Positions 40,011 to 56,525 of a stretch of DNA of 64,000 nt are shown here, piece by piece (positions within the stretch are counted from its first letter, which is position 1; every line of letters starts with the position of its first letter). The notes under the pieces were generated by a model that saw nothing but the letters and a program-made list of their open reading frames with translations, had not been told where the DNA came from and made no database searches. Location of the stretch: the NCBI GenBank assembly GCA_030524035.1, contig JAUNHG010000002.1, forward strand, positions 124,001-188,000, in the 5' to 3' direction. This DNA is from Kocuria sp. (GTDB taxonomy: Bacteria > Actinomycetota > Actinomycetes > Actinomycetales > Micrococcaceae). The translations under genes were made by a program, and so were the position numbers.

Positions 40011-40090
40011 CACAACGTGTACGTTACATGCCGCCTGTACGGGCCTTTTGACCTGGGGGTACTCTGACGCCAACTAGGTCAGGGGGGGGC

Positions 40091-40576
40091 ATGGGTGCCA
40101 ACGTGATGCTCGTTGTCGAGCGTAAGTTTAATTATCCACAGTCCACGGTTTTTGCGGCGTGGACTGATCCTCGGCAAATGTCTTGTTGGCGGGGGAGTCC
40201 TGGATGGCATGTGGAAGAAAACAGTGTGAGCTCTCAGTTGGAAGTCGGCGGTCGCCATCACCATGTCAAGGTGCGTGATGATGACCCTTCGACCCGAGTA
40301 ACCACAGAAGCCGTTTTTACTGAGTTTTTTGAACCGGATGTTTTTGTGGCGCATCAACGTATTACCGGAGATGACGGTATCGACCCAGAGACCCCAATGG
40401 AGCTGAGGGTGGAGTTCACCCGGTACGGACGTGGAGACTCTGGCACATTGGTGCGGATTGTTCAGGGGCCGTACGAACCCAACCAAGCGGCCTCACATTC
40501 CACGGGATGGGAGGCCGAATTGGACCGCCTGGAGAACTTTTTGTCTGGTCGCAGTAGGGAGGCGGATCAAGCATGA
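40091..40576 (+). CDS. SRPBCC/AHSA1-like ligand-binding protein
   Basis: A 161-residue START-like fold protein: RKFNYPQSTVFAAWTDPRQMSCW, a central beta sheet, and the C-terminal HSTGWEAELDRLENFL helix typical of the AHSA1 subfamily. No ligand known. Overlaps the MFS transporter by ATGA, so the two are co-translated. Confidence 0.82.
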   Translation: MGANVMLVVERKFNYPQSTVFAAWTDPRQMSCWRGSPGWHVEENSVSSQLEVGGRHHHVKVRDDDPSTRVTTEAVFTEFFEPDVFVAHQRITGDDGIDPETPMELRVEFTRYGRGDSGTLVRIVQGPYEPNQAASHSTGWEAELDRLENFLSGRSREADQA

Positions 40577-41928
40577 GCACCACCGTTGTGCGACAGAAGC
40601 CAATGATGACAATGCCTCAAGTTTTGTTGATGAACTTTGGGTTTTTTGGCATCCAGTATTCGTTTGGTATGCAGCAGACCGCTGTTACTCCTATCTACAA
40701 TTTTTTAGGGGCTGACCCTGAAGAAATTCCCATCCTAAACCTGGCCGGTCCTGTCACTGGTTTACTGGTCCAGCCGCTCATCGGCGCGTTTTCCGACAAG
40801 ACGTGGGTTCCCAAGTGGGGTCGACGTCGCCCATTTTTGCTGGCCGGAGCGATCGGGTGCTCTGTGTGTTTGTTCCTGTTCCCCTTTGCTGCGGCAGTAT
40901 GGATGGCGGTGCTGTTGCTGTGGTTGCTAGATGCTTCCAATAACACGGCGATGGAACCGTATCGTGCGTTCATTGCCGACAAGCTTCCCCCCTCGCAGCT
41001 GGCAAAAGGGTTCCTTGCCCAGTCATTCTTTACGGGGTTTGGCATAACTTTAGCTAATGTCAGTTTGTTTATCTTCAAACAGGTTTTTGATGGTGCTATG
41101 GGGAACGGTATCCCGTATTGGGTGCTGGCATCTTTCATGCTGGGCGCTGTGGCCTCTATTGCAACGGTTCTGGTGTCTATTCTGAGCACTCAGGAAATTC
41201 CGCCATCAGATGAGGAACTGGCTACTTTGCGTGCTGAAAAGCGCGGGTTGGTTCCCGCGTTAAAAGAAATTGGCCAGGCCATTGTGGAGATGCCCGTGCA
41301 GCTGCGGAAATTAGCTGTGGTTTACTTTTTTCAGTGGTATGCCATGAATATCTATTGGCAGTTTGTGGCTTTAACCGTGGCAGCTGCGGCTTTTGGCACA
41401 AGCTCACTATCCTCAGCAGCTGGCGAGGATGCTGTTGCGTGGACTGGGCTGATTAACGGTTGGTACAACATCGTGACTTTCTGTGTCGCGTTCTTCTTAG
41501 TAGCGCTGGCTAAACGTCATGGTGCCAAGTTTGTTCATATGGCGTGCTTACTATTGGCTGCGGTGGGTTTGATGATTTTCCCGCATGTGACAAACCAATA
41601 CCTGATGTTCGTGCCCATTATTGGATTGGGTATTGCGTGGGCATCCATTATGGGGGTCCCGTACATCATGGCGGTGCGTATGATTCCGTCGTCGCGCTAC
41701 GGAGTGTACATGGGAATTATCAACATGATGATTGTGGTTCCCATGCTGATTCAGACTTTAACTTTTGGATGGGTTTATCAGCTGATTGGTGGAACTCCCG
41801 GAAACGCCATCACTTTTGCTGCTGTGTTCTTGGGGATTGCTGCACTATTGATGCTATGGATTAAGGAACCCCCGATTGTGCGGGACGTGGATGATCTTTC
41901 CACATCCACTGTGGCGCCAGGTCATTAA
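40573..41928 (+). CDS. MFS sugar transporter (SLC45/sucrose type)
   Basis: A 451-residue permease with about twelve helices. Between helices 2 and 3 is GAFSDKTWVPKWGRRRPF, matching the DxxxxxxGRRRP loop of SLC45/sucrose-proton symporters, and DASNNTAMEPYRAFIADKLP follows in helix 4-5. Probable disaccharide or glucoside uptake; the substrate is not fixed by sequence. Co-translated with the SRPBCC gene. Confidence 0.85.
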   Translation: MSTTVVRQKPMMTMPQVLLMNFGFFGIQYSFGMQQTAVTPIYNFLGADPEEIPILNLAGPVTGLLVQPLIGAFSDKTWVPKWGRRRPFLLAGAIGCSVCLFLFPFAAAVWMAVLLLWLLDASNNTAMEPYRAFIADKLPPSQLAKGFLAQSFFTGFGITLANVSLFIFKQVFDGAMGNGIPYWVLASFMLGAVASIATVLVSILSTQEIPPSDEELATLRAEKRGLVPALKEIGQAIVEMPVQLRKLAVVYFFQWYAMNIYWQFVALTVAAAAFGTSSLSSAAGEDAVAWTGLINGWYNIVTFCVAFFLVALAKRHGAKFVHMACLLLAAVGLMIFPHVTNQYLMFVPIIGLGIAWASIMGVPYIMAVRMIPSSRYGVYMGIINMMIVVPMLIQTLTFGWVYQLIGGTPGNAITFAAVFLGIAALLMLWIKEPPIVRDVDDLSTSTVAPGH

Positions 41929-41974
41929 CGCTCTCGAACCTTGACCGACCACCAGGATTCACAAGGAGAATTGC

Positions 41975-42454
41975 ATGATGCAGGGTGTTTACAAGACGAT
42001 TGTGGTCGGTACGGATGGTTCTGAGTTAGCTGAAACCACGGTGCGTCGAGCTTCGTGGGTTGCCCTACAGGAAAATGCTGAATTAATTATTGTGTGTGCC
42101 TATAAGGACATGAGTTTTCGCGTGGGAGCTAAAGCGCGTCATAAAGGTTCCGCAGCGCAAGCTGGTCAGGTGTATGGCAAGAAAGCTGCTCGTGCGGCAA
42201 TGAATATGGCTATAGACAGTGCCCGCGAAACCGGTGCGGTGATCGCCGGTGCTTTACTGATTGATGGCGATGCCGCCGAGTCTTTACTAGAAACGGCTGA
42301 ATCGCGGGAAGCCGATCTGATGGTTATCGGTGGCCTTCGGGACCGTTGGATTGGTGGTCGGCTCCTGGGTGATGTGGCGGGTGATGTGCTGCGCCGGGCA
42401 AATTGCGACGTTCTGATGGTGGTTCACCCCACGGAGGTGACAGCTGAGCATTGA
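41975..42454 (+). CDS. Universal stress protein
   Basis: A 159-residue UspA-domain protein. The start YKTIVVGTDGSELAETTV and the C-terminal nucleotide motif GGLRDRWIGGRLLGDVAGDVLRR (shortened: GG then GRLLGDVAGDV) indicate the ATP-binding class. AAGGAG precedes the ATG. It is the last gene with core-like composition before the accessory island. Confidence 0.9.
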   Translation: MMQGVYKTIVVGTDGSELAETTVRRASWVALQENAELIIVCAYKDMSFRVGAKARHKGSAAQAGQVYGKKAARAAMNMAIDSARETGAVIAGALLIDGDAAESLLETAESREADLMVIGGLRDRWIGGRLLGDVAGDVLRRANCDVLMVVHPTEVTAEH

Positions 42455-42535
42455 TTACCTCAAAGTCACGCGGTATGACGCGGGGGCCAGGCAAAAATTC
42501 CGTTAAGGAAGTGCCCTCAACAAAAGTTCATATCT

Positions 42536-42551
42536 GACCCCGTATGGGGTC
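42536..42551. repeat. Short perfect hairpin near the island edge
   Basis: GACCCC and GGGGTC flank GTAT. It lies 80 bases after the universal stress gene. It could be a terminator remnant or part of a recombination site; no T run follows, and I see no second copy at the other end of the window. Confidence 0.4.
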
Positions 42552-43065
42552 CCTGAGGCTTCTGTTCACAAACCTTACCCCTGGGCAGAATGCCCTGATC
42601 AAGCGATGGAAGCGCGGCGTCTACCGCACCTCGCAGAGAGGGTCGGAGCCCCCGACCAGCGACGTTCGCGGGCCCGTCGTGGGGACGATTGCAACTGTTC
42701 AAACCTTTCTCACCCCTGCTCAGGTCGATCAGCTGGTCGACGATTACCTCGGCGGCGCAACGGTCATGGAGCTAGCCGTCAAGTACGAGGTGCACCGCAC
42801 CACCGTCTCTCGTCATCTCACCGACAACGGAGTCGTCCGCCGTTCACCCGGGCTCCACGGATGGGAGGCTGCCGAAGCTGTTCGACTGTTCCGACAGGGC
42901 GAATCGCTTCGAGGGATCTCCCGCACGATCGGAGCCAGCCGGGACTCGGTGCGGAAGACGTTGGAGCGCTACAGGGAGATCCCGCAGCTCGCGTGCCGCC
43001 GCCAGCCCGGCCCAGTTGAGCAGGCTCCAGCTGACGGGCTTGCCGTCGCCACGAGTGCGCGTTAG
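42544..43065 (+). CDS. HTH protein, probable remnant of a recombinase C-terminus
   Basis: A 173-residue frame in which only the part from about residue 50 looks like protein: FLTPAQVDQLVDDYLGGATV, then a helix-turn-helix (ELAVKYEVHRTTVSRHL) and a second HTH-like unit (SLRGISRTIGASRDSVRKTL). Such tandem HTH tails occur at the C-terminus of actinobacterial serine recombinases and as stand-alone downstream ORFs. The start may be GTG 42679 instead. No catalytic domain is present, so it is probably a remnant or an accessory DNA-binding protein. Confidence 0.5.
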   Translation: MGSLRLLFTNLTPGQNALIKRWKRGVYRTSQRGSEPPTSDVRGPVVGTIATVQTFLTPAQVDQLVDDYLGGATVMELAVKYEVHRTTVSRHLTDNGVVRRSPGLHGWEAAEAVRLFRQGESLRGISRTIGASRDSVRKTLERYREIPQLACRRQPGPVEQAPADGLAVATSAR

Positions 43066-43772
43066 TTGAACTGGAACGTCCGGTAGGAGGAGCGTACGTT
43101 GAAGCGCTTGCCCTCCTTGCGCTTCTGGAGAAAGCCCGCGACCGTGTCGACATCGTTGGGCCGCATCCCCAATGCTCGGCACTTGGATCGCACTTGCTCA
43201 ACGGTGACATCCCGCCAGCGATCGGGACGGTTCATCATGTCGGCCCGGAGTTTGTCCTCCTCGTTCCATTTCAAGCCGGAATCGTAGCCAGCAGCCAGCG
43301 AGGCAATGTGCTCCAGAATGCCGTCGATTCCATTCGGCAGTGGTTCTGCGCTCGCGTCTGGCTCCGTCGGCTCCGCTGCGATCTCCGCTCCTGGTACCAA
43401 GAGGGTGGCGTTCGAGTCTTCGATCCACTCCGCCGTTTCCTGCTCGTTCCATTCAATGACCACGAGAGCGTCAGCGCCTGCATCCCAGAGATCGTTCAAG
43501 TGCTTCCGGTCAGGCCAAGCGACCAGTGCGCGAGTGCCGTGAAGAGATCCCATCGAGAATCCCTTCCAGCTGTGATGGTGAACACGAGGATGTGCAACGA
43601 GCTTCTTCAACGAAGCTCCCTCGAATTCCTTCCGCGGCGTCACTACAACGACCGGCCCGCCGTCCTGGGCCAGGAGCCACTTGATGGCCCTCACGTTCTG
43701 AGGCTCCCGTGAGCCCTCGTCGGGCCCGAGCTTTGAGATCGCGACCGGGTACGAGTATCCGCCTGTTGACAT
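43062..43772 (-). CDS. Accessory protein of unknown function
   Basis: A 236-residue protein that I do not recognise. ATG 43772 has GAAAGGAG upstream. The first half (about 25-115) alternates beta strand and helix (PVVVVTPRKEFEG, RALVAWPDRKHLNDL, ADALVVIEW), suggesting a Rossmann-like or nuclease-like fold, but no catalytic motif is clear. The C-terminal half is basic and helical. It precedes nothing on its strand; the interrupted gene lies just upstream and may form an operon with it. Confidence 0.6.
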   Translation of the reverse strand: MSTGGYSYPVAISKLGPDEGSREPQNVRAIKWLLAQDGGPVVVVTPRKEFEGASLKKLVAHPRVHHHSWKGFSMGSLHGTRALVAWPDRKHLNDLWDAGADALVVIEWNEQETAEWIEDSNATLLVPGAEIAAEPTEPDASAEPLPNGIDGILEHIASLAAGYDSGLKWNEEDKLRADMMNRPDRWRDVTVEQVRSKCRALGMRPNDVDTVAGFLQKRKEGKRFNVRSSYRTFQFN

Positions 43773-43886
43773 GGGGTGCTCCTTTCGCCGAACCATGTGA
43801 GAGTCACCGTACGGGTGACCACTGACATTTGAAGCGTCGTCCCTCTTGGTACGAAGCATTCCGCTAGGCGAAGGATTCCATTTCGG

Positions 43887-44269
43887 TTAGGGCTGGTTCT
43901 CTGCAGAGGTCAGCTCTAGATCCGGCTTGGATGCGTCCTCTGGCGCTGGCAGTGCTTGCCTAGACCGAGTGTCGTTCGCGTTGCGATCGATAACCTCCGA
44001 CAGTGAGTCGATCTCGCCGGTATCCGCGTCTTCGGGGAACATCCACCGGACATTGCGGTGCGCGGTGATCACGTCGATTGTCGGTCGAACAGCGTTGCTC
44101 TGCTTGTTCTGAGGACGAACGAACTCGACTTCCTCGAGGGGAATCGAGTTCCGAATCTCTCCCTGCGTGATCAAAGCACGCGGGGAGGCATCGATGATCC
44201 GTCGATCAGTGATCGCAACGAGCGTGGGCGAAGCAAGCTTGTCGATGACCGCGGCACGTTTAGTCGTAT
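43887..44269 (-). pseudogene. C-terminal part of a gene split by an IS3 element (PH-like domain)
   Basis: Open reading frame running into the left end of the insertion sequence. It encodes KLASPTLVAITDRRIID followed by SIPLEEVEFVRPQ, the strand pattern of a bacterial pleckstrin-homology domain, and an acidic tail. Removing the IS and one TAT copy joins it in frame to the part at 45584-46934 (LD then TTKRAAV), giving an uninterrupted 576-residue protein. TTG 44174 could let the fragment be translated alone, but this is doubtful. Confidence 0.8.
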
Positions 44270-44317
44270 TGAATCGGCCTGGGTTTCGTTCCGTTCTTGA
44301 AGCAAGGATGGAACGCG

Positions 44318-44629
44318 ATGAACCAGAAGTACTCTCCCGAGATGCGCGAGCGCGCGCTGCGGATGCTCGATGAGGCCAAGGCCTCCGGTGAGCACTCGAA
44401 TCTGATGTCCGCGGTGCGGCATGTGGCCGGTCTCCTCGGCATGAGCGCGGAGACGCTGCGGGTGTGGCATCGTCGTCGGGAGGTCGACGCGGGCGCGAAG
44501 CCCGGTGTCCCGAGCGATGTCGCGGAGGAGAACAAGCGCCTGCGCCGCGAGGTGGCCGAGCTGCGGAAAGCGAATGAGATCCTCAAAGCCGCGAGCGTGT
44601 TTTTCGCGAAGGAGCTCGACCGGCCCTGA
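44318..44629 (+). CDS. IS3-family transposase OrfA
   Basis: A 103-residue helix-turn-helix protein (YSPEMRERALRML, then ETLRVWHRRREVDAG) with a leucine-zipper-like C-terminus (VAEENKRLRREVAELRK). It binds the IS ends. Near the stop the sequence GTGTTTTTCGCGAAG allows a -1 shift into the orfB frame (VFREGARPALTEM), which would make the OrfAB transposase. ATG 44318 preferred over the TTG upstream. Confidence 0.92.
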   Translation: MNQKYSPEMRERALRMLDEAKASGEHSNLMSAVRHVAGLLGMSAETLRVWHRRREVDAGAKPGVPSDVAEENKRLRREVAELRKANEILKAASVFFAKELDRP

Positions 44630-44634
44630 CCGAG

Positions 44635-45561
44635 ATGATCCGCTTCATCGACGAATATCGAGAGCGGTTCGGGGTCGAGCTCATCTGCCGGACGCTGCGC
44701 CCGGCAGTGCAGGGTTTCATCACGTCCCGCGGGTATCGCGCCGCGAAGACCCGCATCGTCTCCGCCCGGCAGCTGCGGGACGAGCTGCTGGTGCCCGAGG
44801 TTGCCCGGCTGCATGCGGAGAACTACGGCGTCTACGGGCGGCGGAAGATGCATGCCCTCCTGAAACGTCAGGGATGGGACATCGGCCGAGACCAGACCGA
44901 ACGCCTCATGCGCCTCGCGGGAGTGCGTGGGGTTCGCAAGTCGAAGAAGGCGTTCACGACCAGGCCCGACAAGGCGCAATCCCTGCCGCGGGACCTCGTC
45001 CAACGACGGTTCCGCGCAGACGCGCCGCGCAGGCTCTGGGTCGCGGACATCACGTATGTGGCCACCTGGGCGGGGTTCGCGTATGTGGCGTTCGTCACCG
45101 ACGTGTACTCGCGCAAGATCGTGGGCTGGAACGTCGCCTCGACGCTGCGCGCGGAGGTCCTGCCCCTACAAGCGCTGGACATGGCCGCCTGGGGCGCGGA
45201 CGGCCCGCTCGACGGGCTGATCCATCACGCCGACCACGGCTCGAACTACATGTCGATGGTTTACACCGACCGCGTCGTCGAACTTGGCGCGACCCCGTCG
45301 ACAGGCACTGTCGGGGACTCGTATGACAATGCCCTCGCCGAGGCGATCAACAACCTCTACAAGACCGAGCTGATCCGCCAGCGCGGGCCCTGGAGGACGG
45401 TCGAGCAGGTCGAGCTTGCGACGCTCGAATGGGTGTGGTGGTGGAACCACCAACGCCTCCATGGCGAGCTCGGCATGCGCACCCCGGCCGAGGTCGAGGA
45501 CGCGTACTACGCTGACCTCGGATCAGCCTCCCCGGCGACCGCCGGACAGGGAAACCGATAG
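44635..45561 (+). CDS. IS3-family transposase OrfB (DDE integrase core)
   Basis: A 308-residue rve-type catalytic subunit. An HTH_21-like region (about 45-95: LHAENYGVYGRRKMHALLKR) precedes the DDE core: D in WVADITYV, D in IHHADHGSNY, and E in SYDNALAEAINNLYK. The stop codon lies at the first base of the right inverted repeat. Complete and apparently functional. Confidence 0.94.
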   Translation: MIRFIDEYRERFGVELICRTLRPAVQGFITSRGYRAAKTRIVSARQLRDELLVPEVARLHAENYGVYGRRKMHALLKRQGWDIGRDQTERLMRLAGVRGVRKSKKAFTTRPDKAQSLPRDLVQRRFRADAPRRLWVADITYVATWAGFAYVAFVTDVYSRKIVGWNVASTLRAEVLPLQALDMAAWGADGPLDGLIHHADHGSNYMSMVYTDRVVELGATPSTGTVGDSYDNALAEAINNLYKTELIRQRGPWRTVEQVELATLEWVWWWNHQRLHGELGMRTPAEVEDAYYADLGSASPATAGQGNR

Positions 45562-45583
45562 GAACGAAACCCAGGCCGATTCA

Positions 45584-46934
45584 TATCGAGCGTCGCCCAT
45601 GTCGCGTCCACGCGCGCTCCAAGCACCGCTGGAACGACACCAACCAGGTTGTGCTGACCCGGCTCGTAAGGAAACGCGATCGCGCTGAGCGACTCGTCAT
45701 CTTCGATGAACCAGCGAAGCACACGAAGATACTTTTCTAGGTCCGTGTCGGCGGGCATGCACGCCACGTCGGGAATCTGTAGCGGCTCAACCGGCGGGTT
45801 GAGAGCATCTGCCAGCGGCTCAATCGCATCCAGGAGCTGCTGACACGTGAGTCGTGAGACCTTCGATGCACTTCTCTTTTTGGACAGTGGCATCGTTACA
45901 CGTCCTGGGAGCTCGGCGATGATTCGAAGTTCCCTGGTGAGGTCCTTCACGAGCGCCGCGGCTTGCGCCATTGAGGCTTCGAACTGTTGACGGGTATCAG
46001 CCTTGATCTCCTCGACGAGCCTAGCCTCGTGTTCGTTGGTCTCGCCATTGGCTCGTGCACGCGCGGCGCGGAGTGCCTGATATCCGGTTTGAGCTTTCAA
46101 CGACACGATCAGCGCATTGGCGTCAAAGAGGATCGCTTCAGCGTTGTTTTCTAGGTACTGCCGTCGGGCTGTTCCGCGGACACGTGCGAGTTGCTTGATG
46201 TGGTTTCCAACGTTCTGCCGGTACAGATCCAGTTGTTTGTCGAGCTTGTCGCTGCTGCCGGAAACTGACTCCCAGATGGTGGGCGACACGGCTTGCACCT
46301 TGGTAGCTTCGCTGATCGCGCGGTCCATGGACTTGGCAAGACCGGTGAGCTCTGCCCACTGGTCGCGGCGAATCGACTCAAGCGTCTGCGAGGTCAACGC
46401 GATGTTCGCCTGCACCAGGCTCGACACTTCACTCAGCTGCATCTGCAACGCCAACATGGCAACCGCAGGCCCAATGGCAGCGACCGCAGTGCCGACGGTC
46501 ATTGATGCCGGAATGAATCGGGCCTGTGCAACCATCTTGCCGTTCTGGAAAATAGCTCCCAGTTTGGCTCCATCTTTGGTGGCCATCTCCGCTCCGCCCT
46601 TCAAGAGGGCGAGAGTGGCCTCGTTGACGCGGAATAACCCTTGTGCGCCTGCCGCTACTTCCGTAAGGTTCCCTGCGATGGTGGCGATGTTGCCGACAGA
46701 CCCGAGTGCTTTATCCAGCTGCAGTCGATCGATCGAAGACACGAGGCCAAAATCGATGAGCTCCAGCCCATCTGGGACCTCGCCCAGGACAACGGCCATA
46801 CCGGGAGCGACCTCAACAATCGCTGTTTTCGACTTCTCCAGTTCTCCAGACGCGCCGTCGTCGGAAGCACGTTCGTCAGTCGTGTCGACCTGCTCGTCGA
46901 CCTGCTCGTCGGGCTGTTCGTGCTCGTCTGTCAT
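45584..46934 (-). pseudogene. N-terminal part of a gene split by an IS3 element
   Basis: The first about 450 residues of the interrupted protein. An acidic, Asp/Glu/Gln-rich N-terminus (1-45) leads to a hydrophobic stretch (about 150-175, MTVGTAVAAIGPAVAMLALQM) that could cross or associate with a membrane, and long helical segments (about 200-330) suited to coiled coils. ATG 46934 is preferred over the longer frame. The reading frame continues into IS sequence (to 45507) and would yield a truncated chimera. Function unknown; the PH-like end lies at 43887-44269. Confidence 0.8.
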
Positions 46935-47197
46935 GCGCCTCACTCCTCGGTGTGGTGTCGCCGAGGTAGGTTCCCAGCGCGTGCTTGCCAATTATCTCAA
47001 GCACCACTGACGTTATGAGCGACTCGCGCCCTCGTTGTCTTCGATACGGGTCTTCCGTACGGCATCGCTGGGGCGTACCCTCGAAGTAGGCGACCTCTAC
47101 CTGCTACGCCATCACTCGTCGTGATGGCACGACGTGCGGCTCCGGTCGAACGGTCCTTCTACTACCTGTCGCCTCCCGACAGGAGAGGACTGTTCCC
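46935..47197. other. Divergent intergenic region in the island
   Basis: About 260 bases between the interrupted gene (minus strand) and a small membrane protein gene (plus). It contains CTGTCGCCTCCCGACAGG (47167-47184), an inverted repeat just before the downstream start, which may be an operator or part of the leader. No gene is seen in it. Confidence 0.4.
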
Positions 47198-47566
47198 ATG
47201 CTTCGCACCATCTGGATCGCCAGCCTTTACATTCGCGCGTTCATGCGCCGGTTCATGCCGACGAACATCGTGCTCGACAAGCTCCGCACCCGCCGCGGCC
47301 TCAAGTGGGGCGTCCCGGTGATGTTCCTCGGGGTCGTCTACTTCTACCTCGCCGCACTCATGAGCGTCCTCGTCGATGGCGGTGCGTCGAAGTGGCTCTA
47401 CATCGTGATGCTCGTGTGCATCTGGAACACGTTCAAGTTCCTGTTCTTCGGTCCGGTCTCACTGCTTCGCCTCATTCGCCTTCGCTCAATTGAGAGGAAA
47501 ACCGCGATGAAGGCGGAATCGTCTCATTTAAGCGTCGAGCAGGTCTTATCACGAGGCCTCGGTTAA
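47198..47566 (+). CDS. Small basic membrane protein
   Basis: A 122-residue protein with two probable helices (about 40-60 and 66-86), an arginine-rich N-terminus (LYIRAFMRRFMPTN) and a basic stretch after helix 2 (LLRLIRLRSIERK). Similar small proteins appear in actinobacterial mobile regions, sometimes labelled sulfate permease without evidence. GAGAGGA precedes ATG 47198. Its 3' end overlaps the convergent AAA ATPase gene by 18 bases. Confidence 0.65.
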   Translation: MLRTIWIASLYIRAFMRRFMPTNIVLDKLRTRRGLKWGVPVMFLGVVYFYLAALMSVLVDGGASKWLYIVMLVCIWNTFKFLFFGPVSLLRLIRLRSIERKTAMKAESSHLSVEQVLSRGLG

Positions 47567-49885
47567 TACGGAGGTGTCGTCCCTCTCGATCCAGGGCGCG
47601 AAAACTTCACCTTGCATTGCCAGTTCTTCACCGTTGCTCGCACTAAGCATCATGTCGAAGTGCGCAGAGTGTCCTTGCAGGTCGAAGTAGCGGCGAAAGA
47701 GCCGAAGGAACTGTTGAGTTCCACCAACATCGATAGTTTGGTCCATGTCGTCGGCGATGGTGTGTGAGCCAGAGCTCGCCCACATATGGAACATCAGGAT
47801 CACGCGCTCCTCGAATACGGCGAGCCCTCCTGGCATTTGGTAATCCGAGACCTGCCCAATGGTCTTGAAGTAGCCTTCGATAATGCGGCGAACGATGTTG
47901 AACACTCCGACACGGACGAGGTTCGATTCGTCCTCGCTTCTGGCGGCTTCGACTACCGAGTCCCAGAGCAGAGGATAGCTGCCTCGGATCTTAGAGACAT
48001 GGCCATCATCTTTTGCGATAGTTATGCCCTGGACTTGTTTCAACAGGCGGAAATAGCGGCGATGAGGGCGACTTGAGCGATCAATTTCATAGGCCGCCTC
48101 GTGGTGGAACTGCGTGTTGTGTGTCAGGACAATGAGTTGCTTTAGATTATTTTGGCCAGAGATTGCCCATCCTGCAGCTTGTCGAACATGTGCAGCAACA
48201 AGAAAAAGCGTCTCGCTGTCTAGGCTAGAGATGGGGTCATCGATTACCGCGACTACGTCTTCGGGTTCGGCACCTGATTCTGAGGTTCCGAAGAGAGATT
48301 CCCAGAAGTACACGAAGCAAAGGAATGTCCTTTCGCCCTCGGAGAGCGATTCATGGGCAAAGCTACCGTCTGCCCTTACAATCCGGTATCCGCCAGAGAC
48401 ACCGCTTTCGGCCTGAATATGGAACCGATGGAATCCCATCGCGTTCACCGTTCCGTTAATCCGATCAGCAACTTCTTGTGTATTGGAGACCTGTTCGCGA
48501 AGCGCAAGAAGTTCGACTTCATCGGCGGTGTCCAAGTCTTCGCTGTCCGCGATCAGCTGCTCGAGTTCAGAAATGTTTTTATTCTTGAGGGTGGTAACAC
48601 GCTGATATCTAGAAAGCGCTCCTTTTACTGCCCTGTCAGACAAGAAGACTCGCCACCCGTCTTCAACGATCTTCTTTCGCTCCTCCTGCGCATTGGACAC
48701 AACAGCGTTGTGCTGTTTCACTTCCTCGTTGAAGGAAGAGATCAGAAACTGCAGTGCGTCCACCGCAGAAGTGACGTCGTCCACACTTACAGCGGTCGTC
48801 GGGTGCGCGACCTTGTCGCTCAGGCGTGATTCGATAATTGTGCACTCAGACTCCACGCGTTGAATATTTGTGATGAATGGCGTCTGGTCGGCTAATGTCT
48901 CGCCTTCGACGAACTTGCGCACTGCACTAATTTCGACCTTCAGGTTGTTCAACCTGCCGGACACCAGGCGCTTGATGTCATGTGCTCGCTGCAGCTGTGC
49001 GTCAAACCCTGAGGCGAAGTGGTCCTCCAACCGTTGCAGGAAGTTCGGCGGCACTGGCTGCTGGCAAAAAGGGCAGCAAGTGTTTTCCTCGTTGAGATAC
49101 TTGCGGCCTTCACTTACCCAGTCTTCGTTGGCAAGCTGATGAATTAGTGAGGACAGTGAACTCCCCGATGTTGTTGGTTTTGTAGCGTTCAGATCCTGCA
49201 ACTCGGAGGCTTCAAGTACGGAGCGAGTGCTCAGCGAGGGCATTTTGCGCCTCGGGGCCGAATCTCCTGAAATTGTCGCTGCGCGCGGCTTGAGTGAGTC
49301 CCATGTAGAAGTTGGATCGCCGGTTAGCGGCAGCGCATTCCGACGTAACGTCTCGTCAAGGATCTTTACTCGATTGCGATTAAAGCCTTTGAATACAATA
49401 TCTGCGACAATCGAGTCCTTGTCGCGATATTCGTTGTAAATCCGGTAAACCTCGTCTTTAGCGACGCTCTCCTCGCGCTCGATCTCAGCGTACAAACCAG
49501 TTGGTTCGGCACCTTTCGAACCAATAGTGGTTTCCCAATCCTGGCGCTCACGTTTCCGGTGCTGTCGTTCGGACTCGAGCTCTGCGATCCGATCGACCAC
49601 AGTGCCCGCAGCGGCCCCCATCGTGAAAATGCCGTCGACACGTTCCTGGAGGACGTGTTCCCGGTAGCGTTCATTGAACACCCGAATCGGAAGTGGCGTT
49701 GCAGCCGTCGTCCAAGCAACGCGGGCGGGAGCGTCGGAAGGCTGACCCGCGAGCGTATTGGAGATTGTGGTCTTCCCGGAACCGTTCTGCGCGAAGATGA
49801 AGTTGACCTTGCTGAGATTCTCGAGGACAAGCGGTTGTGTCCCAAAGCAGTAATCTGCCGTTACAGAGATCTTCTTGATGCTCAA
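47549..49885 (-). CDS. AAA_13 ATPase with zinc-hook-like motif; RloC/PrrC-like candidate
   Basis: A 778-residue SMC-like ATPase. Walker A QNGSGKTT is at 33-40, an ABC-type signature LSEGERTF lies near 510-520, and Walker B is AVIDDPISSLDS with D549-D550. Two coiled-coil arms (about 80-230 and 285-480) flank C270-C271-P-F-C274, a CxxC suited to a zinc hook. The C-terminal region has NIVRRIIEGYF (R666, E670) and downstream H700/H708, resembling the Arg-Glu-His site of PrrC/RloC anticodon nucleases. Such proteins shut down translation during phage infection. The start is TTG; no ATG or GTG is in frame upstream. Family sure, nuclease role inferred. Confidence 0.75.
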   Translation of the reverse strand: MSIKKISVTADYCFGTQPLVLENLSKVNFIFAQNGSGKTTISNTLAGQPSDAPARVAWTTAATPLPIRVFNERYREHVLQERVDGIFTMGAAAGTVVDRIAELESERQHRKRERQDWETTIGSKGAEPTGLYAEIEREESVAKDEVYRIYNEYRDKDSIVADIVFKGFNRNRVKILDETLRRNALPLTGDPTSTWDSLKPRAATISGDSAPRRKMPSLSTRSVLEASELQDLNATKPTTSGSSLSSLIHQLANEDWVSEGRKYLNEENTCCPFCQQPVPPNFLQRLEDHFASGFDAQLQRAHDIKRLVSGRLNNLKVEISAVRKFVEGETLADQTPFITNIQRVESECTIIESRLSDKVAHPTTAVSVDDVTSAVDALQFLISSFNEEVKQHNAVVSNAQEERKKIVEDGWRVFLSDRAVKGALSRYQRVTTLKNKNISELEQLIADSEDLDTADEVELLALREQVSNTQEVADRINGTVNAMGFHRFHIQAESGVSGGYRIVRADGSFAHESLSEGERTFLCFVYFWESLFGTSESGAEPEDVVAVIDDPISSLDSETLFLVAAHVRQAAGWAISGQNNLKQLIVLTHNTQFHHEAAYEIDRSSRPHRRYFRLLKQVQGITIAKDDGHVSKIRGSYPLLWDSVVEAARSEDESNLVRVGVFNIVRRIIEGYFKTIGQVSDYQMPGGLAVFEERVILMFHMWASSGSHTIADDMDQTIDVGGTQQFLRLFRRYFDLQGHSAHFDMMLSASNGEELAMQGEVFAPWIERDDTSVLTEAS

Positions 49886-50048
49886 CTGAAGTCCGATCCT
49901 GGATGCGCCATTGGAACCGATACGGGACGACTCATCTGGGTCATCCAGCCATTAGTAATGAGTTTAACTGTCACCGCATCGACCGCTTGGTCTGCTCATC
50001 ACAGGTGTGGAGGGTTTCTTGGCGCTGAGGCACAGGAAGGGGTGCAGA

Positions 50049-51085
50049 TCACGCCGCAGCCACGAGCAACTCGTCCCAGTTCGTCAGACACCTTGGTGAG
50101 AGGAGCTCGCGCTTCATCTCCCAGCCCGGCGGAGTCTTCATCCCGCCGAGCCCGACACCGACTGTGGTCGTGACGAACTTGCGGTTGATCTCATCGAGCG
50201 CGTGTCCGACGCCGCGACCTTCGAACTCGGGGCGGAACAGGTTGAGCGGCTGCACCCGTCGGCCTGCCGGAGATCGGTGAGGACGACTCCGGCGCGGGCA
50301 TAGCGGATGCCAGGCACCGGGAACAGCTTCGGCAATAGCGCCCGGGCGGCTTTAGTGAGCGTGATCGGATCGTCCGTCGGCGTCGGTAGCGCGACCGTCG
50401 CCTGCGCGCTGTGGCTGACCGTGCCTTCATCGGCCCAGCCTGTCGCCGCCCACGCGGACAGATGATGCGCGACCGATCCTTGCGCACGGAGCCTCGCGGA
50501 GACGCGCTGTGCGTAGAGCGAGACCACCTGCTCCATCTCGGGTTCGGTGGTGATCTTCTTCGCGAACGAGCGAGAGAAGATGAGCTGGTCCTTTGCCGCG
50601 GGCGGCACCATCTCCAGCGGGATGCACGGTACTCCGCGGAGTTCGAGGACGATGCGTTCCATGTTCACGTTGAAGCGCTTGCGAGCCCACTTCGGGTCCA
50701 TGTCCCGCAACCCACGGGCGGTGTGCACGTTGATCACCGCGAGCCGCTTCCCGGAGCGCTCGGCCACGCCCCAGAGGTCGGTGACGGGAATGCTGTCGAG
50801 GATGCGGTCCATCTGCTCGTCGGTGTAGCGGGCCAGGTGCAAGACGCCGATGTCAGCGAAGGACTTCTTGATGCCGATCGCCGCGACCTTCGCCAAGGAC
50901 TTCGTCGCCCCGATCGCGACACGGACGGGGACCCCGGTGAGCTGTCGGACGGTGCGGCGGATCTCGCGGCCGATGTCCTCGAGCTCAGCAGGTGTGCCGC
51001 GGAGTCCGACGAAGGATTCGTCGACGGAGTAGACCTCTTGCCAGGCGGAGTAGCGGGAGATGATCTCTACTGGTAGGTCCGATTG
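50049..51085 (-). pseudogene. umuC: Decayed umuC (Y-family DNA polymerase V subunit)
   Basis: The readable part contains YSAWQEVYSVDESFVGLRG (palm active site), GVPVRVAIGATKSLAKVA, the HhH thumb and little-finger regions. The N-terminal catalytic section (the DCNNFYASCE part, about 90 residues) is missing, replaced by unrelated sequence at about 51065-51085. Near 50250 the frame changes by one base: ADG then VQPLNLFRPEFEGRG, continuing to a genuine C-terminus (MKRELLSPR...WDELLVAAA, 50049). A deleted G in GACGGGTGCAG explains it. Not functional as written. Confidence 0.85.
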
Positions 51086-51214
51086 TTGATGAGTGCACTT
51101 TTCGCGCACGGTTTGTCGACGATATAGAGGTTCGCGCTCGGAGGGCATTGGCGGCCCCTGCCAGAGCGGGGTGGGTGAACATTCGGTGACGAAGCCGGCT
51201 TGGACTCGCGGATT

Positions 51215-51250
51215 GATTCGATAGATGTCAATATAGATGCATGTCGAATC
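51215..51250. promoter_or_regulatory. Operator-like inverted repeat over the trxB start
   Basis: GATTCGA (51215-51221) and TCGAATC (51244-51250) form a 7-base inverted repeat that spans the trxB start codon. Inside is TCGATAGATGTCAATA (51218-51233), nearly the same as a sequence ahead of the second arsR. ArsR-family repressors bind such imperfect repeats. There is no ribosome binding site, so the trxB mRNA may be leaderless. Confidence 0.6.
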
Positions 51251-52215
51251 AAGAGGTGGAACTGGTCATCGTCGGGTCAGGTCCCGCCGGATACACTGCG
51301 GCTGTCTACGCAGCACGTGCGGGTCTCGCGCCGGTCGTGATCGCCGGCTCGGTGACGGCGGGCGGTGCGTTGATGACGACGACCGAGGTGGAGAACTTCC
51401 CGGGCTTCGTCGATGGCGTGCAGGGGCCGGAGCTGATGGAGTCGATGCGGGCGCAGGCCGAGCGGTTCGGCGCGCAGATCGTCTACGACGACGCGATCCG
51501 CCTTGATCTCGACGGCGACGTGAAGACCGTTGAGACCGGTGCTGGCGAGACGTACCTGGCGCGGGCGGTGGTCCTGACGATGGGATCCGCGTATCGCAAG
51601 CTCGGCCTTCCTGAGGAGGAGCGCTTGTCCGGGCACGGAGTGTCTTGGTGCGCGACGTGCGACGGGTTCTTCTTCCGCGACAAGGAGATCTCCGTGATCG
51701 GCGGCGGGGACTCGGCGATGGAAGAGGCTCTGTTCCTCACTCGGTTCGCGTCGAAGGTGACCATAGTGCACCGCCGGGACGAGTTCCGGGCGTCGAGGAT
51801 CATGGCGCAGCGCGTGCTGGAGGATCCGAAGATCGAGGTCGCCTGGAACAGCGAGGTCGCCGCGATCCTCGGCGACGAGCAGGTCACCGGGCTCGTGCTG
51901 CGCGACACCGTCACCGGGGCCGAGCGCACGCTCGACGCGACGGGGGTGTTCGTCGCGATCGGGCACGATCCTCGCTCCGAGCTCGTCGCGGGCCAGGTAG
52001 ACACCGACGCGGACGGCTACGTTCGTGTCGCGCACCCGTCCACGCGGACGAACCTGGCCGGGGTGTTCGCGGCCGGGGATCTCGTCGATCACACGTACCG
52101 GCAGGCGATCACCGCCGCGGGCACCGGCTGCGCGGCCGCGCAGGACGCCCAGCACTACCTGTCGAACCTCGCACCCGCCACCCTGCCCGAGCCCGTCCTG
52201 GAGGTCTCCGCATGA
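51241..52215 (+). CDS. trxB: Thioredoxin reductase
   Basis: NADPH-dependent flavoenzyme of 324 residues. FAD motif [17 protein letters not shown], redox centre WCATCDG, NADPH motif [10 protein letters not shown] and the C-terminal FAD box GVFAAGDL are all present. It recharges the adjacent thioredoxin, which supplies electrons to the arsenate reductases downstream. First gene of trxB-trxA-acr3-arsRC, each overlapping by ATGA. Confidence 0.94.
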
Positions 52216-52538
52216 GCACCGTCACCCCCGTCACCGACGCCACTTTCCAGGCTGAAGTGCTCGAATCCGAGCTGCCCGTCGTGGTCGATATCTGGGCGAC
52301 CTGGTGCGGGCCGTGCAAGGCGATCGCCCCGATCCTGGACCAGCTCGCCGGCGAGTACGCGGGCCGGGTGAAGATCGTGAAGCTCGACGCCGACCAGAAT
52401 CCCGAGACTGTGGCCGCGGCCCGCGTGACCTCGATCCCGACCCTCGGCTTCTACCGGGACGGGGAACGCGTCGACACGCTGATCGGCGCGCACCCGAAGC
52501 CCGTCTACCTCGCGAAGATCGAGGAGCTGCTCGCATGA
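52212..52538 (+). CDS. trxA: Thioredoxin
   Basis: A 108-residue thioredoxin with active site W31-C-G-P-C35 and the cis-proline IPTLGFY. ATG 52212 overlaps the trxB stop by four bases. Within the arsenic operon it probably serves the LMW-phosphatase-type ArsC proteins. The longer frame upstream is spurious. Confidence 0.94.
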
Positions 52539-53623
52539 CCGACGCTTTGACCCGTACCGCCCCGAAGAGGCTCTCCACCCTAGACAAGTGGCTGCCGCTG
52601 TGGATCGGCCTCGCCATGGTCGCGGGCCTGCTGCTCGGACGTTTCGTGCCGGCTCTTTCGGGGCTGTTGGCGAAGCTCGAGGTCGGCGGGATCTCGATCC
52701 CCATCGGCCTGGGCCTGCTGGTGATGATGTACCCGGTCCTGGCGAAGGTCCGCTACGACAAGGTCGCCGCCGTCACCGGGGACAAGAAACTGCTGGTCTC
52801 GTCGCTGGTGCTGAACTGGCTGGCCGGCCCAGCCGTGATGTTCGCCCTGGCCTGGTTGTTCCTGCCGGACCTGCCGGAGTACCGTACGGGGCTCATCATC
52901 GTCGGGCTGGCGCGGTGCATCGCGATGGTCGTGATCTGGAACGATCTGGCCTGCGGCGACCGCGAGGCGACGGCGGTGCTCGTCGCGATCAACTCGGTCT
53001 TCCAGGTCGTGATGTTCTCGGTGCTGGGCTGGTTCTATCTCACGGTGCTGCCCGGCTGGCTGGGCCTGGACGCGCAGGGCCTGGAGGTCTCCGTCTGGCA
53101 GATCGCGCTGAACGTTCTCGTCTTCCTCGGCGTGCCGCTGGTGGCGGGCTTCGCGTCGCGATGGATCGGCGAGAAGCGCCATGGCCGCGCCTGGTACGAG
53201 GAGAAGTTCCTGCCCGCGGTCGGCCCATGGGCGCTGTACGGGCTGCTGTTCACGATCGTGCTGCTGTTCGCGCTGCAGGACGATGCGGTGCTGGCGAAGC
53301 CCCTCGACGTGGCGCGGATCGCGCTGCCGCTGCTGGTCTACTTCGGCCTGATGTGGTTCGCGGGGCTGCTGCTCGGCAAGGGCCTCGGCCTCGGCTACGC
53401 ACGGTCGACGACGCTCGCGTTCACCGCGGCGGGCAACAACTTCGAGCTAGCGATCGCGGTCGCGATCGGCACCTTCGGCGCGGCCTCCGGACAGGCCCTC
53501 GCCGGAGTCGTCGGCCCCCTGATCGAGGTGCCTGTGCTCGTGGGCCTCGTCTACGTCTCGCTCTGGGCCGCCCGGGCCTGGTTCCGCACCGACCCCTACG
53601 CCGTCGAATCGAGGACGTCATGA
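52535..53623 (+). CDS. acr3: Arsenite efflux permease Acr3
   Basis: A 362-residue Acr3-family (BASS fold) antiporter with about ten helices. Begins near LDKWLPLWIGLAMVAGLLLG and has WNDLACGDREATAVLVA, IALPLLVYFGLMW and FTAAGNNFELAIAVAI, the conserved helix 4 and 9 motifs. It exports arsenite made by the reductases. ATG 52535 overlaps trxA. Sometimes labelled arsB, but the fold is not the ArsB one. Confidence 0.93.
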   Translation: MTDALTRTAPKRLSTLDKWLPLWIGLAMVAGLLLGRFVPALSGLLAKLEVGGISIPIGLGLLVMMYPVLAKVRYDKVAAVTGDKKLLVSSLVLNWLAGPAVMFALAWLFLPDLPEYRTGLIIVGLARCIAMVVIWNDLACGDREATAVLVAINSVFQVVMFSVLGWFYLTVLPGWLGLDAQGLEVSVWQIALNVLVFLGVPLVAGFASRWIGEKRHGRAWYEEKFLPAVGPWALYGLLFTIVLLFALQDDAVLAKPLDVARIALPLLVYFGLMWFAGLLLGKGLGLGYARSTTLAFTAAGNNFELAIAVAIGTFGAASGQALAGVVGPLIEVPVLVGLVYVSLWAARAWFRTDPYAVESRTS

Positions 53624-54624
53624 CCGATACCGCCGTCATCTCCAACACGGAGGCGTGCGCGCCGTCCGCGACGCATGCCATCGGCACCGAGGCCGCGACC
53701 ACCGTGGCCGGCGCGCTCAAGGCGCTCGCTGATCCGCTGCGTCTGCGGATGCTCTCCGCGATCGCGATCGACCCTCGCGGAGAGTCCTGCGTGTGCGACC
53801 TCGCCGAGCTCGCCGAGGTGTCGCAGCCGACGGTCTCCCACCATCTGAAGGTGCTGAAGGAGACGGGGATGCTGCTGTCCGAGCGGCGGGGTACCTGGGT
53901 GTACTACCGCATCGCGCCAGGCAAGCAGCGCGCCGTCGCGGCTCTCCTTGACGCGTTCGCTCCCGCCGCAGCCGCCATGGACGAGCCCGAAGACACCGCA
54001 GCACGGGCCGAGGCCTTGCAGCAGATGGACACCCGCGTGACCCGCCTCGCCGAAGAGCTCGCGGACGAGCTGACCGGGCTGAACCGTGATCTCGTGGTCG
54101 CGATCGTGCGCGAGTCCTACGCGGGCCTGGTGCGCTCGGCCAAGCTGACGGCGCACATGATCCCGCTGACCGAACGCTTCGCCCGGCAGCGCCTCACCGA
54201 CCTGACGCGGGACCGCTCGGCCGGGGTGCCGCAGGTGCTGTTCGTGTGCGTGCAGAACGCGGGCCGCTCCCAGCTCGCCGCCGCGATCGTCAACCAGCTC
54301 GCCGACGGCCGCGTGGTCGCACGCTCCGCCGGTTCCACCCCGGCGTCGGACGTGCACCCGCACGTGCGCTCGCTGCTCACCGAGATCGAGGGCGCGCAGG
54401 AGGCCGAGACGGCGTTCCCGAAGCCCCTCACCGACGACGCCGTGCGCGCGGCCGACGTGGTGGTCGCCATGGGCTGCGGCGACGTCTGCCCGATCATCCC
54501 CGGGGTCCGGTACGAGGACTGGGCCGTCGGCGACCCGGCCCTCGCTTCCCCGGAAGGGGTCGACGCGATCCGCCACGACATCGAGGCCCGCGTCCGCGAC
54601 CTCCTCGCCACCCTCACCGACTGA
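53620..54624 (+). CDS. ArsR-ArsC fusion (repressor plus arsenate reductase)
   Basis: A 334-residue two-enzyme protein. Residues about 25-115 are an ArsR winged helix with the As(III) site C57-V-C59-DL and SQPTVSHHLKVL. A three-helix spacer (about 125-190, ELTGLNRDLVVAIVRES) matches the N-terminal domain of actinobacterial tyrosine phosphatase-like proteins. From about 205 is an LMW-phosphatase ArsC domain with C210-V-Q-N-A-G-R-S217 and further Cys in MGCGDVCP. Overlaps acr3 by ATGA. Confidence 0.9.
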   Translation: MTDTAVISNTEACAPSATHAIGTEAATTVAGALKALADPLRLRMLSAIAIDPRGESCVCDLAELAEVSQPTVSHHLKVLKETGMLLSERRGTWVYYRIAPGKQRAVAALLDAFAPAAAAMDEPEDTAARAEALQQMDTRVTRLAEELADELTGLNRDLVVAIVRESYAGLVRSAKLTAHMIPLTERFARQRLTDLTRDRSAGVPQVLFVCVQNAGRSQLAAAIVNQLADGRVVARSAGSTPASDVHPHVRSLLTEIEGAQEAETAFPKPLTDDAVRAADVVVAMGCGDVCPIIPGVRYEDWAVGDPALASPEGVDAIRHDIEARVRDLLATLTD

Positions 54625-54638
54625 AAGTTGCGAAAACC

Positions 54639-55043
54639 ATGACCGACCAGAAGCCCTCCGTCCTCTTCGTTTGCGTCCACAACGCCGGCCGCTCCCAGAT
54701 GGCCGCCGGCTGGCTCCGCCACCTCGCGGCAGGACGCGTCGAGGTCCGATCCGCCGGGTCCATGCCCGCTGACCAGATCAACCCCGTCGCCGTCGAGGCG
54801 ATGCGTGAGGTGGGCATCGACATCACTGCGGAGCAGCCAAAAGTGCTCACCACCGAAGCGGTGCAAGACTCCGATGTCGTGATCACGATGGGCTGCGGCG
54901 ACGCCTGCCCGTTCTTCCCGGGCAAGCGGTATGAGGACTGGAAGCTCGACGACCCCGCCGGGCAGGGCATCGAGGCGGTTCGTCCCATCCGCGACGAGAT
55001 CAAGGGCCGCGTCGAGACCCTTCTCGCCGACCTCCTGGGCTGA
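54639..55043 (+). CDS. arsC: Arsenate reductase (thioredoxin/mycothiol-linked, LMW-PTP type)
   Basis: A 134-residue stand-alone reductase whose P loop starts at C12 (CVHNAGRSQM), with later cysteines in MGCGDACPFFPG that relay the disulfide. It reduces arsenate to arsenite for export. It lies 14 bases after the fused copy, so the operon has two reductase domains. ATG 54639. Confidence 0.93.
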   Translation: MTDQKPSVLFVCVHNAGRSQMAAGWLRHLAAGRVEVRSAGSMPADQINPVAVEAMREVGIDITAEQPKVLTTEAVQDSDVVITMGCGDACPFFPGKRYEDWKLDDPAGQGIEAVRPIRDEIKGRVETLLADLLG

Positions 55044-55060
55044 GCAGTACCGCACGTGCG

Positions 55061-55092
55061 AAGGGGCAGGAACCGTCTGGTTCCTGCCCCTT
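55061..55092. terminator. Bidirectional terminator between arsC and the FAD gene
   Basis: A perfect 14-base stem (AAGGGGCAGGAACC at 55061-55074 with 55079-55092) and a 4-base loop, between convergent genes ending at 55043 and 55108. It probably serves both. Confidence 0.8.
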
Positions 55093-55107
55093 CCTGTTGT
55101 CCGCGAT

Positions 55108-56442
55108 TCAGCGGCCAGCTGGTGCCGTGCCGAGCTGGATGAGCTGGGGGCTCGACGCGCAGCACGACCCGGCGGAAGACTCCTGGTCGGGAGCGTCGAA
55201 CAGGCCGGAGCCGCCGCACACACCCGTGTCCGGCAGAACGAGCTCCACGCGCTCGGCTGCCTCGCGGTCCCCGGCGATCGCGGCGACGACGCTGCGGACC
55301 TGCTCGAACCCGGTCAGGGCGAGGAAGGTCGGCGCGCGTCCGTAGGACTTCGCTCCCACGATGTAGAACCCTGGCTCGGGCTGCTCGAGGTCGGCCGCGC
55401 CGGTGGCCCGGACGGAACCGCACGAGTGGACGTTCGGGTCGACCTCCGCGGCAATCTTCGATGGGGCCTGCAGGCGCATGTCGAGGTCGAGACGGATCTC
55501 GGAGAGGAAGGACAGGTCGGGACGGAAGCCGGTGGCGACGAACACCCGCGCCGCAGGCTCGAGGCGTCGGCCGTCCTCTGCCACGAGCGCCGCTTGGCCG
55601 CCGTCGATGACGACCCGCTCGGTGCGGAACCCGGTCACGAGATCGACGAGCCCGTCTTCGACGGCCTTCTTCGCCCGCTGGCCCAGCGCGCCGCGCTCGG
55701 GCAGCTCGTCGGCGCTGCCGCCGCCGAAGGTGTTGCCGACCGCGCCGCGGCGCAGCACCCAGGTGATCCGCGTCCCCGGCTCGCGCTTGGCCACCCTGGA
55801 CAGGATCCCGATCGTCGTCGCCGCGGAGTGCCCGTTGCCGACCACCACGACGTGCTGGCCCGCCAGGGGGCTGGCGTCCTCGATCGCGGGCATGCGGTGC
55901 TCCAGGAGCCCAGCTTCGACCGCTGCCCTCTCACCGAGGGCGGGAAGACCGTCAGCGCCGGCGGGGCTGGGTGTCCGCCAGGTGCCGGAAGCGTCGATCA
56001 CGGCACTCGCTTCGATCCGCTCCTCGGTGCCGTCGGCGCGCGCGACGTGGACGACGAAGGGCTGCTCGGCGCGGCCCGCGTCGACGGAGAGGTCCCGGCC
56101 CTTGCGGCCGACGCCGACCACGCGAGCTCCGTAGCGTACGCGGTCACCGAGGGCGTCGGCGAGGGGCGCGAGGTACTGATCGATCCACTGCGCGCCGGTC
56201 GGGTAGCCCTGAGTCGGGGCCGACCACCCGGTGGGCTCCAGCAGGCGTCGCGACGCGGCGTCGGTGAGCTCGGTCCACGGAGAGAACAGGCGGACGTGGC
56301 CCCACTCGGCCACCGCGGAGGCAGCCGTGTCGCCGGATTCCAGGACGATCGGGTCGAGCCCGCGCTCGAGCAGGTGAGCGGCGGCGGCCAGTCCCTGCGG
56401 ACCGGCCCCGATGACGACGACAGGATTCACTGCGACCTCCAT
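55108..56442 (-). CDS. FAD-dependent NAD(P)-binding oxidoreductase (ArsO-like)
   Basis: A 444-residue flavoprotein with the FAD motif GAGPQGLAAAAHL near the start, a second dinucleotide motif VVVGNGHSAATT, and FVATGFRPD, the layout of flavin monooxygenase-like enzymes. Cysteine-rich end (SAGSCCASS). Similar genes occur in actinobacterial ars clusters under the name ArsO; the substrate is not known. ATG 56442 is preferred. Divergent from the second arsR, sharing its control region. Confidence 0.8.
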   Translation of the reverse strand: MEVAVNPVVVIGAGPQGLAAAAHLLERGLDPIVLESGDTAASAVAEWGHVRLFSPWTELTDAASRRLLEPTGWSAPTQGYPTGAQWIDQYLAPLADALGDRVRYGARVVGVGRKGRDLSVDAGRAEQPFVVHVARADGTEERIEASAVIDASGTWRTPSPAGADGLPALGERAAVEAGLLEHRMPAIEDASPLAGQHVVVVGNGHSAATTIGILSRVAKREPGTRITWVLRRGAVGNTFGGGSADELPERGALGQRAKKAVEDGLVDLVTGFRTERVVIDGGQAALVAEDGRRLEPAARVFVATGFRPDLSFLSEIRLDLDMRLQAPSKIAAEVDPNVHSCGSVRATGAADLEQPEPGFYIVGAKSYGRAPTFLALTGFEQVRSVVAAIAGDREAAERVELVLPDTGVCGGSGLFDAPDQESSAGSCCASSPQLIQLGTAPAGR

Positions 56443-56463
56443 GCATTGACGTTCTTCGATGCG

Positions 56464-56510
56464 TTGACAGGAACGATCCTGTCCTTCATATCGACAGATG
56501 TCAATACGTC
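56464..56510. promoter_or_regulatory. Shared control region of the FAD gene and arsR
   Basis: TTGACA at 56464-56469 with CATATC 17 bases on points to the right; on the other strand TTGACA (56499-56504) with CAGGAT 17 bases on points left. The motif TCGACAGATGTCAATA (56491-56506) overlaps both and nearly repeats the one before trxB. CAGGA/TCCTG (56468-56481) forms a second small repeat. This suggests one ArsR repressor controlling both directions. Confidence 0.6.
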
Positions 56511-56525
56511 GGGCAGAATGGAGCC

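Follow-up and report, generated by a model that had tools for sequence, protein, structure and literature searches.

A probable RloC orthologue in a Kocuria genome, and active-site differences among its relatives

We analyzed a 64,000-nucleotide stretch of the Kocuria sp. assembly GCA_030524035.1 (contig JAUNHG010000002.1, positions 124,001 to 188,000; hereafter the window, numbered from its first letter). The gene at 47549..49885 on the minus strand very probably encodes a complete RloC orthologue, by family of the anticodon nuclease (ACNase) type. A preliminary description of this DNA had proposed an RloC/PrrC-like anticodon nuclease built on an AAA_13 ATPase. The open reading frame (ORF) and the ATPase were confirmed, with Pfam AAA_13 (PF13166) covering residues 19-734 (E = 3e-112; 377 bits against a cut-off of 36). 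The RloC part of the proposal stood, while the PrrC part did not: the length of 778 amino acids (aa), the zinc hook and the lack of HsdM and HSDR_N matches above cut-off support an RloC-type rather than a PrrC-type protein. The gene is ordinary within its family and represents a new member of a known family, not a new kind of system.

Davidov and Kaufmann (2008; PMC2610378) describe RloC by ABC motifs like those of PrrC, an ATPase interrupted by an insert with a CxxC hook, and a length of 658-897 residues. The triad is given there as R-x3-E-x36-52-H, with a Ser often preceding the His. The window protein has 778 residues, carries C271 and C274 inside a split ATPase, possesses all ABC motifs in common with PrrC (Walker A, signature, Walker B and switch His) and reads R666-x3-E670-x37-S707-H708. 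According to the same source, replacement of any triad residue by Ala abolishes the activity of the Geobacillus RloC, and hook mutations alter it.

Residue conservation was assessed in 78 aligned rows, comprising the window, 23 other loci and 54 rows from the viral_contigs set. For the latter, the best 80 of 148 relatives were used: 74 had an ORF of 650 aa or more, 4 a shorter one and 2 none, and 54 of the 74 remained once near copies were removed. The broken copies L009, L021 and L030 and the frameshifted L002 are excluded, and L012 and L013 were taken as repeats of L006 and L010, each being counted once. The Walker A motif AQNGSGKT (residues 32-39; 49769..49792; this and all following motifs on the minus strand) retains N34, G35, G37 and K38 in 78/78 rows, as do the zinc hook CPFC (residues 271-274; 49064..49075) both Cys, the ABC signature LSEG (residues 514-517; 48335..48346) L514, S515 and G517, and the Walker B/D-loop VIDDP (residues 547-551; 48233..48247) D549 and D550. 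The Walker A/B pair and C271-C274 thus lie where the preliminary description had placed them, the hook sitting between Walker A (32-39) and the signature and Walker B (514-551). H589 in LTHN (48119..48121), also found in 78/78 rows, is taken as the putative switch ('linchpin') histidine, a motif named in the legend to Fig. 1 of PMC2610378; the assignment is our own.

The putative ACNase triad consists of R666-R-I-I-E670 (47876..47890) and S707-H708 (47762..47767), 37 residues past E670. R666 is present in 75 and E670 in 72 of the 78 rows (Asp in 5, Asn in 1), while Ser-His is found in 44, and in 43 of these the distances from the aligned R and E agree with the published rule. Nearby, Y672 is kept in 77/78 and N663 in 72/78 rows, and H742 and M746 of an H-x3-M motif outside the published triad (H742 at 47660..47662) are invariant in all 78. 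In a set of 25 rows that includes L002, the three triad positions hold R in 25, E in 24 and H in 23 rows. When the 178 C-terminal residues were shuffled 20,000 times, the motif R-x3-E-x36-52-SH arose in 3.6% of cases, and in 27.6% when any His was allowed; without the Ser, the published rule fits four places in the protein, namely R68, R343, R649 (R649-E653-H700) and R666. We regard the triad as more than a chance match because it is conserved across the aligned rows. Among the window and four close relatives, the two arm stretches flanking the hook (155 and 190 residues), candidates for the coiled-coil arms of RloC, vary freely, with 15% invariant positions, compared with 37% for the hook stretch, 44% for residues 646-746, and 47% and 54% for the parts of the ATPase head.

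The reading frame of the gene is uninterrupted. Its TTG start codon (49883..49885, minus strand) is the first possible start after an in-frame TAA at 49952-49954, 22 codons upstream, and coincides with the first start of the relative L006. The TTG is consistent with the low expression predicted for RloC, for which a rare start codon has also been noted (PMC2610378).

Two histidines had been put forward as candidates for the triad, H700 and H708, located 34 and 42 residues after R666 of the RRxxE motif (R666-R667-I-I-E670), and these residues are indeed found there. R666, E670 and H708 were borne out as conserved family positions to the extent given above, but H700 was not, as it is His in only 4/78 rows, those of the window and three close relatives. 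L010, a member of the same five-member clade, has Ile in its place and keeps the Ser-His. H708 is therefore the likely triad histidine. H700 is disfavoured as a catalytic residue solely because of its poor conservation, even though R694-x5-H700 fits the Rx4-6H motif of the all-helical HEPN superfamily, in which the C-terminal domain has been placed (PMC3710099), and R649-E653-H700 fits the loose form of the triad rule. The remark in the preliminary description that the histidine spacing is unlike that of PrrC was correct, and the spacing of H708 fits the published RloC rule.

Family searches pointed in the same direction. The top match in the PADLOC defence library was PDC-S06 (residues 3-751, E = 1.2e-149), with further, weaker matches including Lamassu LmuB (E = 3.9e-17), and PHROGs returned a family of unknown function (E = 5.9e-62) and, more weakly, a phage SbcC-like family (E = 5.1e-10). 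No NCBIfam model scored above cut-off. The LmuB and SbcC-like matches, together with weak matches to Rad50/SMC heads in the PDB, speak for a Rad50/SbcC-like repair or DNA-tethering ATPase devoid of its own nuclease, with a C-terminal domain that only binds a partner. We consider this very unlikely, since AAA_13 extends to residue 734 and so includes the C-terminal part, R666 and E670 are kept family-wide and Ser-His in the clade of the window, and no SbcD/Mre11-type Pfam match was obtained in the seven neighbouring proteins scanned. Moreover, Rad50, SbcC and gp46 are described as having no equivalent of the RloC C-region (PMC2610378).

Full-length ORFs with 45-49% identity to the window protein were found in Zhihengliuella salsuginis, Arthrobacter wenxiniae, Salinibacterium sp. 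SWN248 and Arthrobacter koreensis, and two partial ORFs in a fifth named-genome relative, Arthrobacter sp. NIO-1057. Matches occurred in 13 of 396 genomes of the order (E 1e-20) and in 2 of 396 genomes across the phylum (E 1e-30), the Kocuria genome included in both counts. The rloC gene of the window is intact; among its relatives, the copies L009 and L021 are fragmented, and a transposase gene separates the two parts of L030.

To consider a possible restriction-modification (R-M) partner, the genome (2.3 Mb in 7 contigs, 99.75% complete) was searched with two type I models; HsdS and other R-M families were not part of this search. The N6_Mtase (HsdM) model gave no match above cut-off (best 19 bits against 20.4) and HSDR_N no match at all, while in 14 control genomes the HsdM model passed its cut-off in 13 and HSDR_N in 9. 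One partial N6_N4_Mtase match exceeded the cut-off elsewhere on the contig. These results make a PrrC-style R-M partner unlikely. PrrC itself is described as a protein of 341-416 aa without a zinc hook, with E-x31-H and silenced by a type I R-M system (PMC2610378), and neither this length, nor the absence of a hook, nor a linked type I R-M system was found for the window protein. That the gene nevertheless encodes a PrrC working with such a system is extremely improbable. A PADLOC PrrC match (E = 4.3e-10) and the proximity of E670-x29-H700 to E-x31-H speak for it; the protein, however, has double the length of PrrC and contains a hook, H700 is a His in 4/78 rows, and HsdM and HSDR_N stay below cut-off. 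The profile comparison with PrrC suggested in the preliminary description thus gave a weak match, which spans residues 545-670, from just before Walker B to E670, where it ends. No PrrC homologues for a direct comparison were obtained at E 1e-15 in 296 genomes of the phylum, the Kocuria genome included.

RloC was linked to R-M in 8 of 73 cases (PMC2610378), and double-strand breaks activate RloC even without R-M (Klaiman et al., 2013; PMC3874168). The missing HsdM and HSDR_N matches are accordingly compatible with a self-contained RloC, active in an R-M-deficient host as reported in the latter study, and self-control by the ATPase and the hook is a better model for the window protein than control by an R-M partner.

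Several observations weigh against the assignment as an anticodon nuclease with H708 in its active site. The HEPN arginine of Rx4-6H is missing before H708, positions H-7 to H-5 being occupied by M701, W702 and A703, and it is likewise missing in 37 of the 44 Ser-His rows. The literal match R694-x5-H700 is common to the window, L006, L007 and L008, but not L010, and the distance from E670 to H700 is closer to that of PrrC than the distance to H708. A single phmmer search of the PDB gave nothing below E 0.7 (6/6 rows at E 0.7 or worse). Among the 60 of 129 matches listed in a PDB profile search, all best stretches lay within profile positions 2-468 and none in the C-terminal domain. Finally, according to a 2025 defence study of Streptococcus thermophilus, RloC acts once type I R-M has been lost (PMC12322248); such a trigger, as worded there, departs from the 2013 finding and would be out of line with the genome of the window. 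On the other side, seven Ser-His rows do have the HEPN arginine, and in these Rx4-6H ends in the His of the Ser-His pair, a point in favour of H708 as the histidine of the HEPN site. In the other 37 rows the arginine would have to be dispensable or replaced, if these proteins are active.

The departure of the H708 surroundings from Rx4-6H also leaves room for an ABC-HEPN toxin built in the same way but directed against a different RNA, such as mRNA, rRNA or tRNA outside the anticodon, which would be RloC-like without being an anticodon nuclease. The known substrates do vary: tRNA-Lys is cleaved by the Geobacillus RloC expressed in E. coli (PMC2610378), and tRNA-Glu and tRNA-Gln are the targets of the Acinetobacter RloC (Klaiman et al., 2013; PMC3874168). 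Both of these proteins are anticodon nucleases, however, and the triad of the window protein and its spacing are those published for anticodon nuclease activity (PMC2610378), so that we judge the toxin with another RNA target to be unlikely.

For the RloC reading, we infer nuclease activity, anticodon-loop specificity and a role in phage defence from the family, taking the Geobacillus kaustophilus and Acinetobacter baylyi proteins as models for these as well as for the sensing and the tRNA target. RloC is characterized by cleavage at the tRNA anticodon with excision of the wobble nucleotide, under the control of its ATPase, DNA and the hook. In the window protein, the N-terminal ABC-ATPase halves, connected by two arms and the CxxC hook, would sense DNA ends or damage in the manner of Rad50 and keep the C-terminal nuclease domain off at rest. 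When DNA damage or a phage is sensed and ATP is hydrolysed, the R666-E670-H708 site may cut tRNA anticodon loops. Translation would then stop, and the infection would be aborted or the damage waited out.

A tree of the 78 rows, built by a quick method that gave long-branch warnings, grouped the window protein with four others from Micrococcaceae and Microbacteriaceae (support 100), within the Ser-His rows. All 34 rows without Ser-His fall on one side of a single branch (support 100). This clade consists of L022 and viral_contigs loci between L065 and L111; 33 of its 34 rows come from viral contigs, which supply 54 of all 78 rows. A His is found at R+45 in 10 of the 34 rows, and 16 have none from R+40 to R+56; 14 nonetheless pass the loose published rule via another His. 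Some phage genes with an RloC annotation seem to belong to the clade. Outside the tree, the protein L168 of Streptococcus phage Javan105, annotated as 'translation-disabling ACNase RloC', has no Ser-His and an Asp in place of the Glu.

In active-site terms, the clade of the window carries R-E-SH without the HEPN Arg and the 34-row clade mostly R and E/D, while H742 is common to 78/78 rows. On this basis, so-called RloC proteins might not share one active site, H742 might be catalytic or tRNA-binding in all of them, and the Ser-His-less clade might be a separate effector class with another target. We offer this proposal tentatively and regard it as doubtful. Among the titles listed in a literature search on the RloC triad, none besides the RloC papers deals with this clade. 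The distribution of the residues suggests that a blanket use of the name 'RloC' for AAA_13 proteins lumps together those that have the published triad histidine and those that lack it. These family-wide differences are a more interesting lead than the window gene itself.

The surroundings of rloC retain only relics of mobile elements, a setting that fits a defence gene. They comprise a gene for a helix-turn-helix (HTH) protein (42544..43065, plus strand; HTH Pfam matches), a 265-aa gene (43062-43859), a transposase pair (44297-45561; Pfam rve and HTH_Tnp_1 matches), which we take to be IS3, and a polymerase gene. The last of these, at 50138-51148 and adjoining rloC, encodes a Y-family (UmuC-like) polymerase without its N-terminal part and is apparently truncated. 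A homologue of the HTH protein lies beside the second AAA_13 gene of the genome. For a 494-aa protein (45507-46991), searches of Pfam, NCBIfam, PADLOC and PHROGs gave nothing at E 0.001; homologues with 55-57% identity are present in three of four matching plasmid records (two Rhodococcus, one Arthrobacter), where no feature is annotated at the matching place. At 51241-58193, inspection of the translations by eye indicated a thioredoxin reductase, a thioredoxin, an arsenite-efflux-like transporter, ArsR- and ArsC-like proteins and an ArsR/CadC-like regulator, and the region looks like a metal-resistance cluster adjoining the mobile relics. When window ORFs starting at 38,000-52,500 were compared by blastp with the loci of close relatives (6 kb flanks where the contig allowed), only RloC, a transposase and matches to rloC in other frames were found, and hence no shared operon partner.

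A small membrane protein gene (122 aa; 47198..47566, plus strand) overlaps the 3' end of rloC with its own 3' end by 18 bases. The genome contains three copies of it (47198-47566 in the window, L117:10791-11156 and L118:10809-11276), all within 1.4 kb of a defence-type gene. Outside this genome, 18 of 26 places encoding the protein in 198 genomes of the order were analyzed as stretches of 10-17 kb. Homologues of a TraA/TrwC-type relaxase occurred in 15 of these 18 loci, a homologue of the L117 DprA-like protein in 8, a homologue of the HTH protein (42544-43065) in 6, and a 62.6% identical homologue of the 265-aa gene in one. In five matching plasmid records the membrane protein is annotated as 'sulfate permease' (2) or 'hypothetical protein' (3). 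With relaxase homologues in 15/18 loci and one copy in the genome next to a Gabija-like pair, the membrane protein most plausibly marks actinobacterial elements that bear a relaxase, and likely belongs to the host element and not to RloC. A function as an RloC partner is less likely on the same grounds. No homologue of the L117 TrwC-type relaxase was found in the window, and its sole DprA-like match (17111-18094) is far from rloC.

The other two copies of the membrane protein gene have neighbours of their own. The L118 copy adjoins the second AAA_13/PDC-S06 gene of the genome (L118:8151-10652; G000:C4, minus strand), which is frameshifted within the C-terminal domain, with R-x3-E in the open frame and Ser-His and H-x3-M in another. 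The L117 copy (G000:C5) adjoins a DprA-like gene and lies at most 1.4 kb from the Gabija-like GajB/GajA pair (L117:12488-15849; PADLOC E = 1.7e-48 and 2.6e-24, GajA without a Pfam match), with the TrwC-type relaxase further on. Pieces of GajA and GajB share 89-91% identity with ORFs on a plasmid from Microbacterium (L165), which suggests a recent transfer.

An uninterrupted RloC in a small-genome bacterium without HsdM or HSDR_N above cut-off provides a natural setting in which to ask whether RloC guards alone. In the 2025 Streptococcus thermophilus study, RloC and PrrC appear as untested against phages (PMC12322248). The main text of a defence survey (PMC10482375) does not mention PrrC, PDC-S06 or Gabija.

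Compared with known systems, the window protein resembles Rad50 and SbcC in its split ABC ATPase with an arm-and-CxxC-hook insert, and differs from them in its C-terminal nuclease-like region, which they are reported to lack (PMC2610378). With PrrC it shares an ABC-ATPase followed by R-x3-E and a His, in line with the model match over residues 545-670, but PrrC is hookless, R-M-linked and 341-416 aa long, as opposed to 778 aa with a zinc hook. PDC-S06 is the best PADLOC match, a label that carries no description and also covers the frameshifted second AAA_13 protein of the genome. In GkaRloC of Geobacillus kaustophilus, by its published residue numbers (C288, R692, E696, H737), the distances from hook Cys to triad Arg and from Arg to His are 404 and 45, versus 395 and 42 here; the GkaRloC spacings match no clade clearly. 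With GkaRloC and AbaRloC of Acinetobacter baylyi, the window protein has in common the length range, Walker A/B, the signature, the switch His, the CxxC hook and the triad R-x3-E-x36-52-(S)H, as well as a rare start codon and the lack of a type I R-M model above cut-off.

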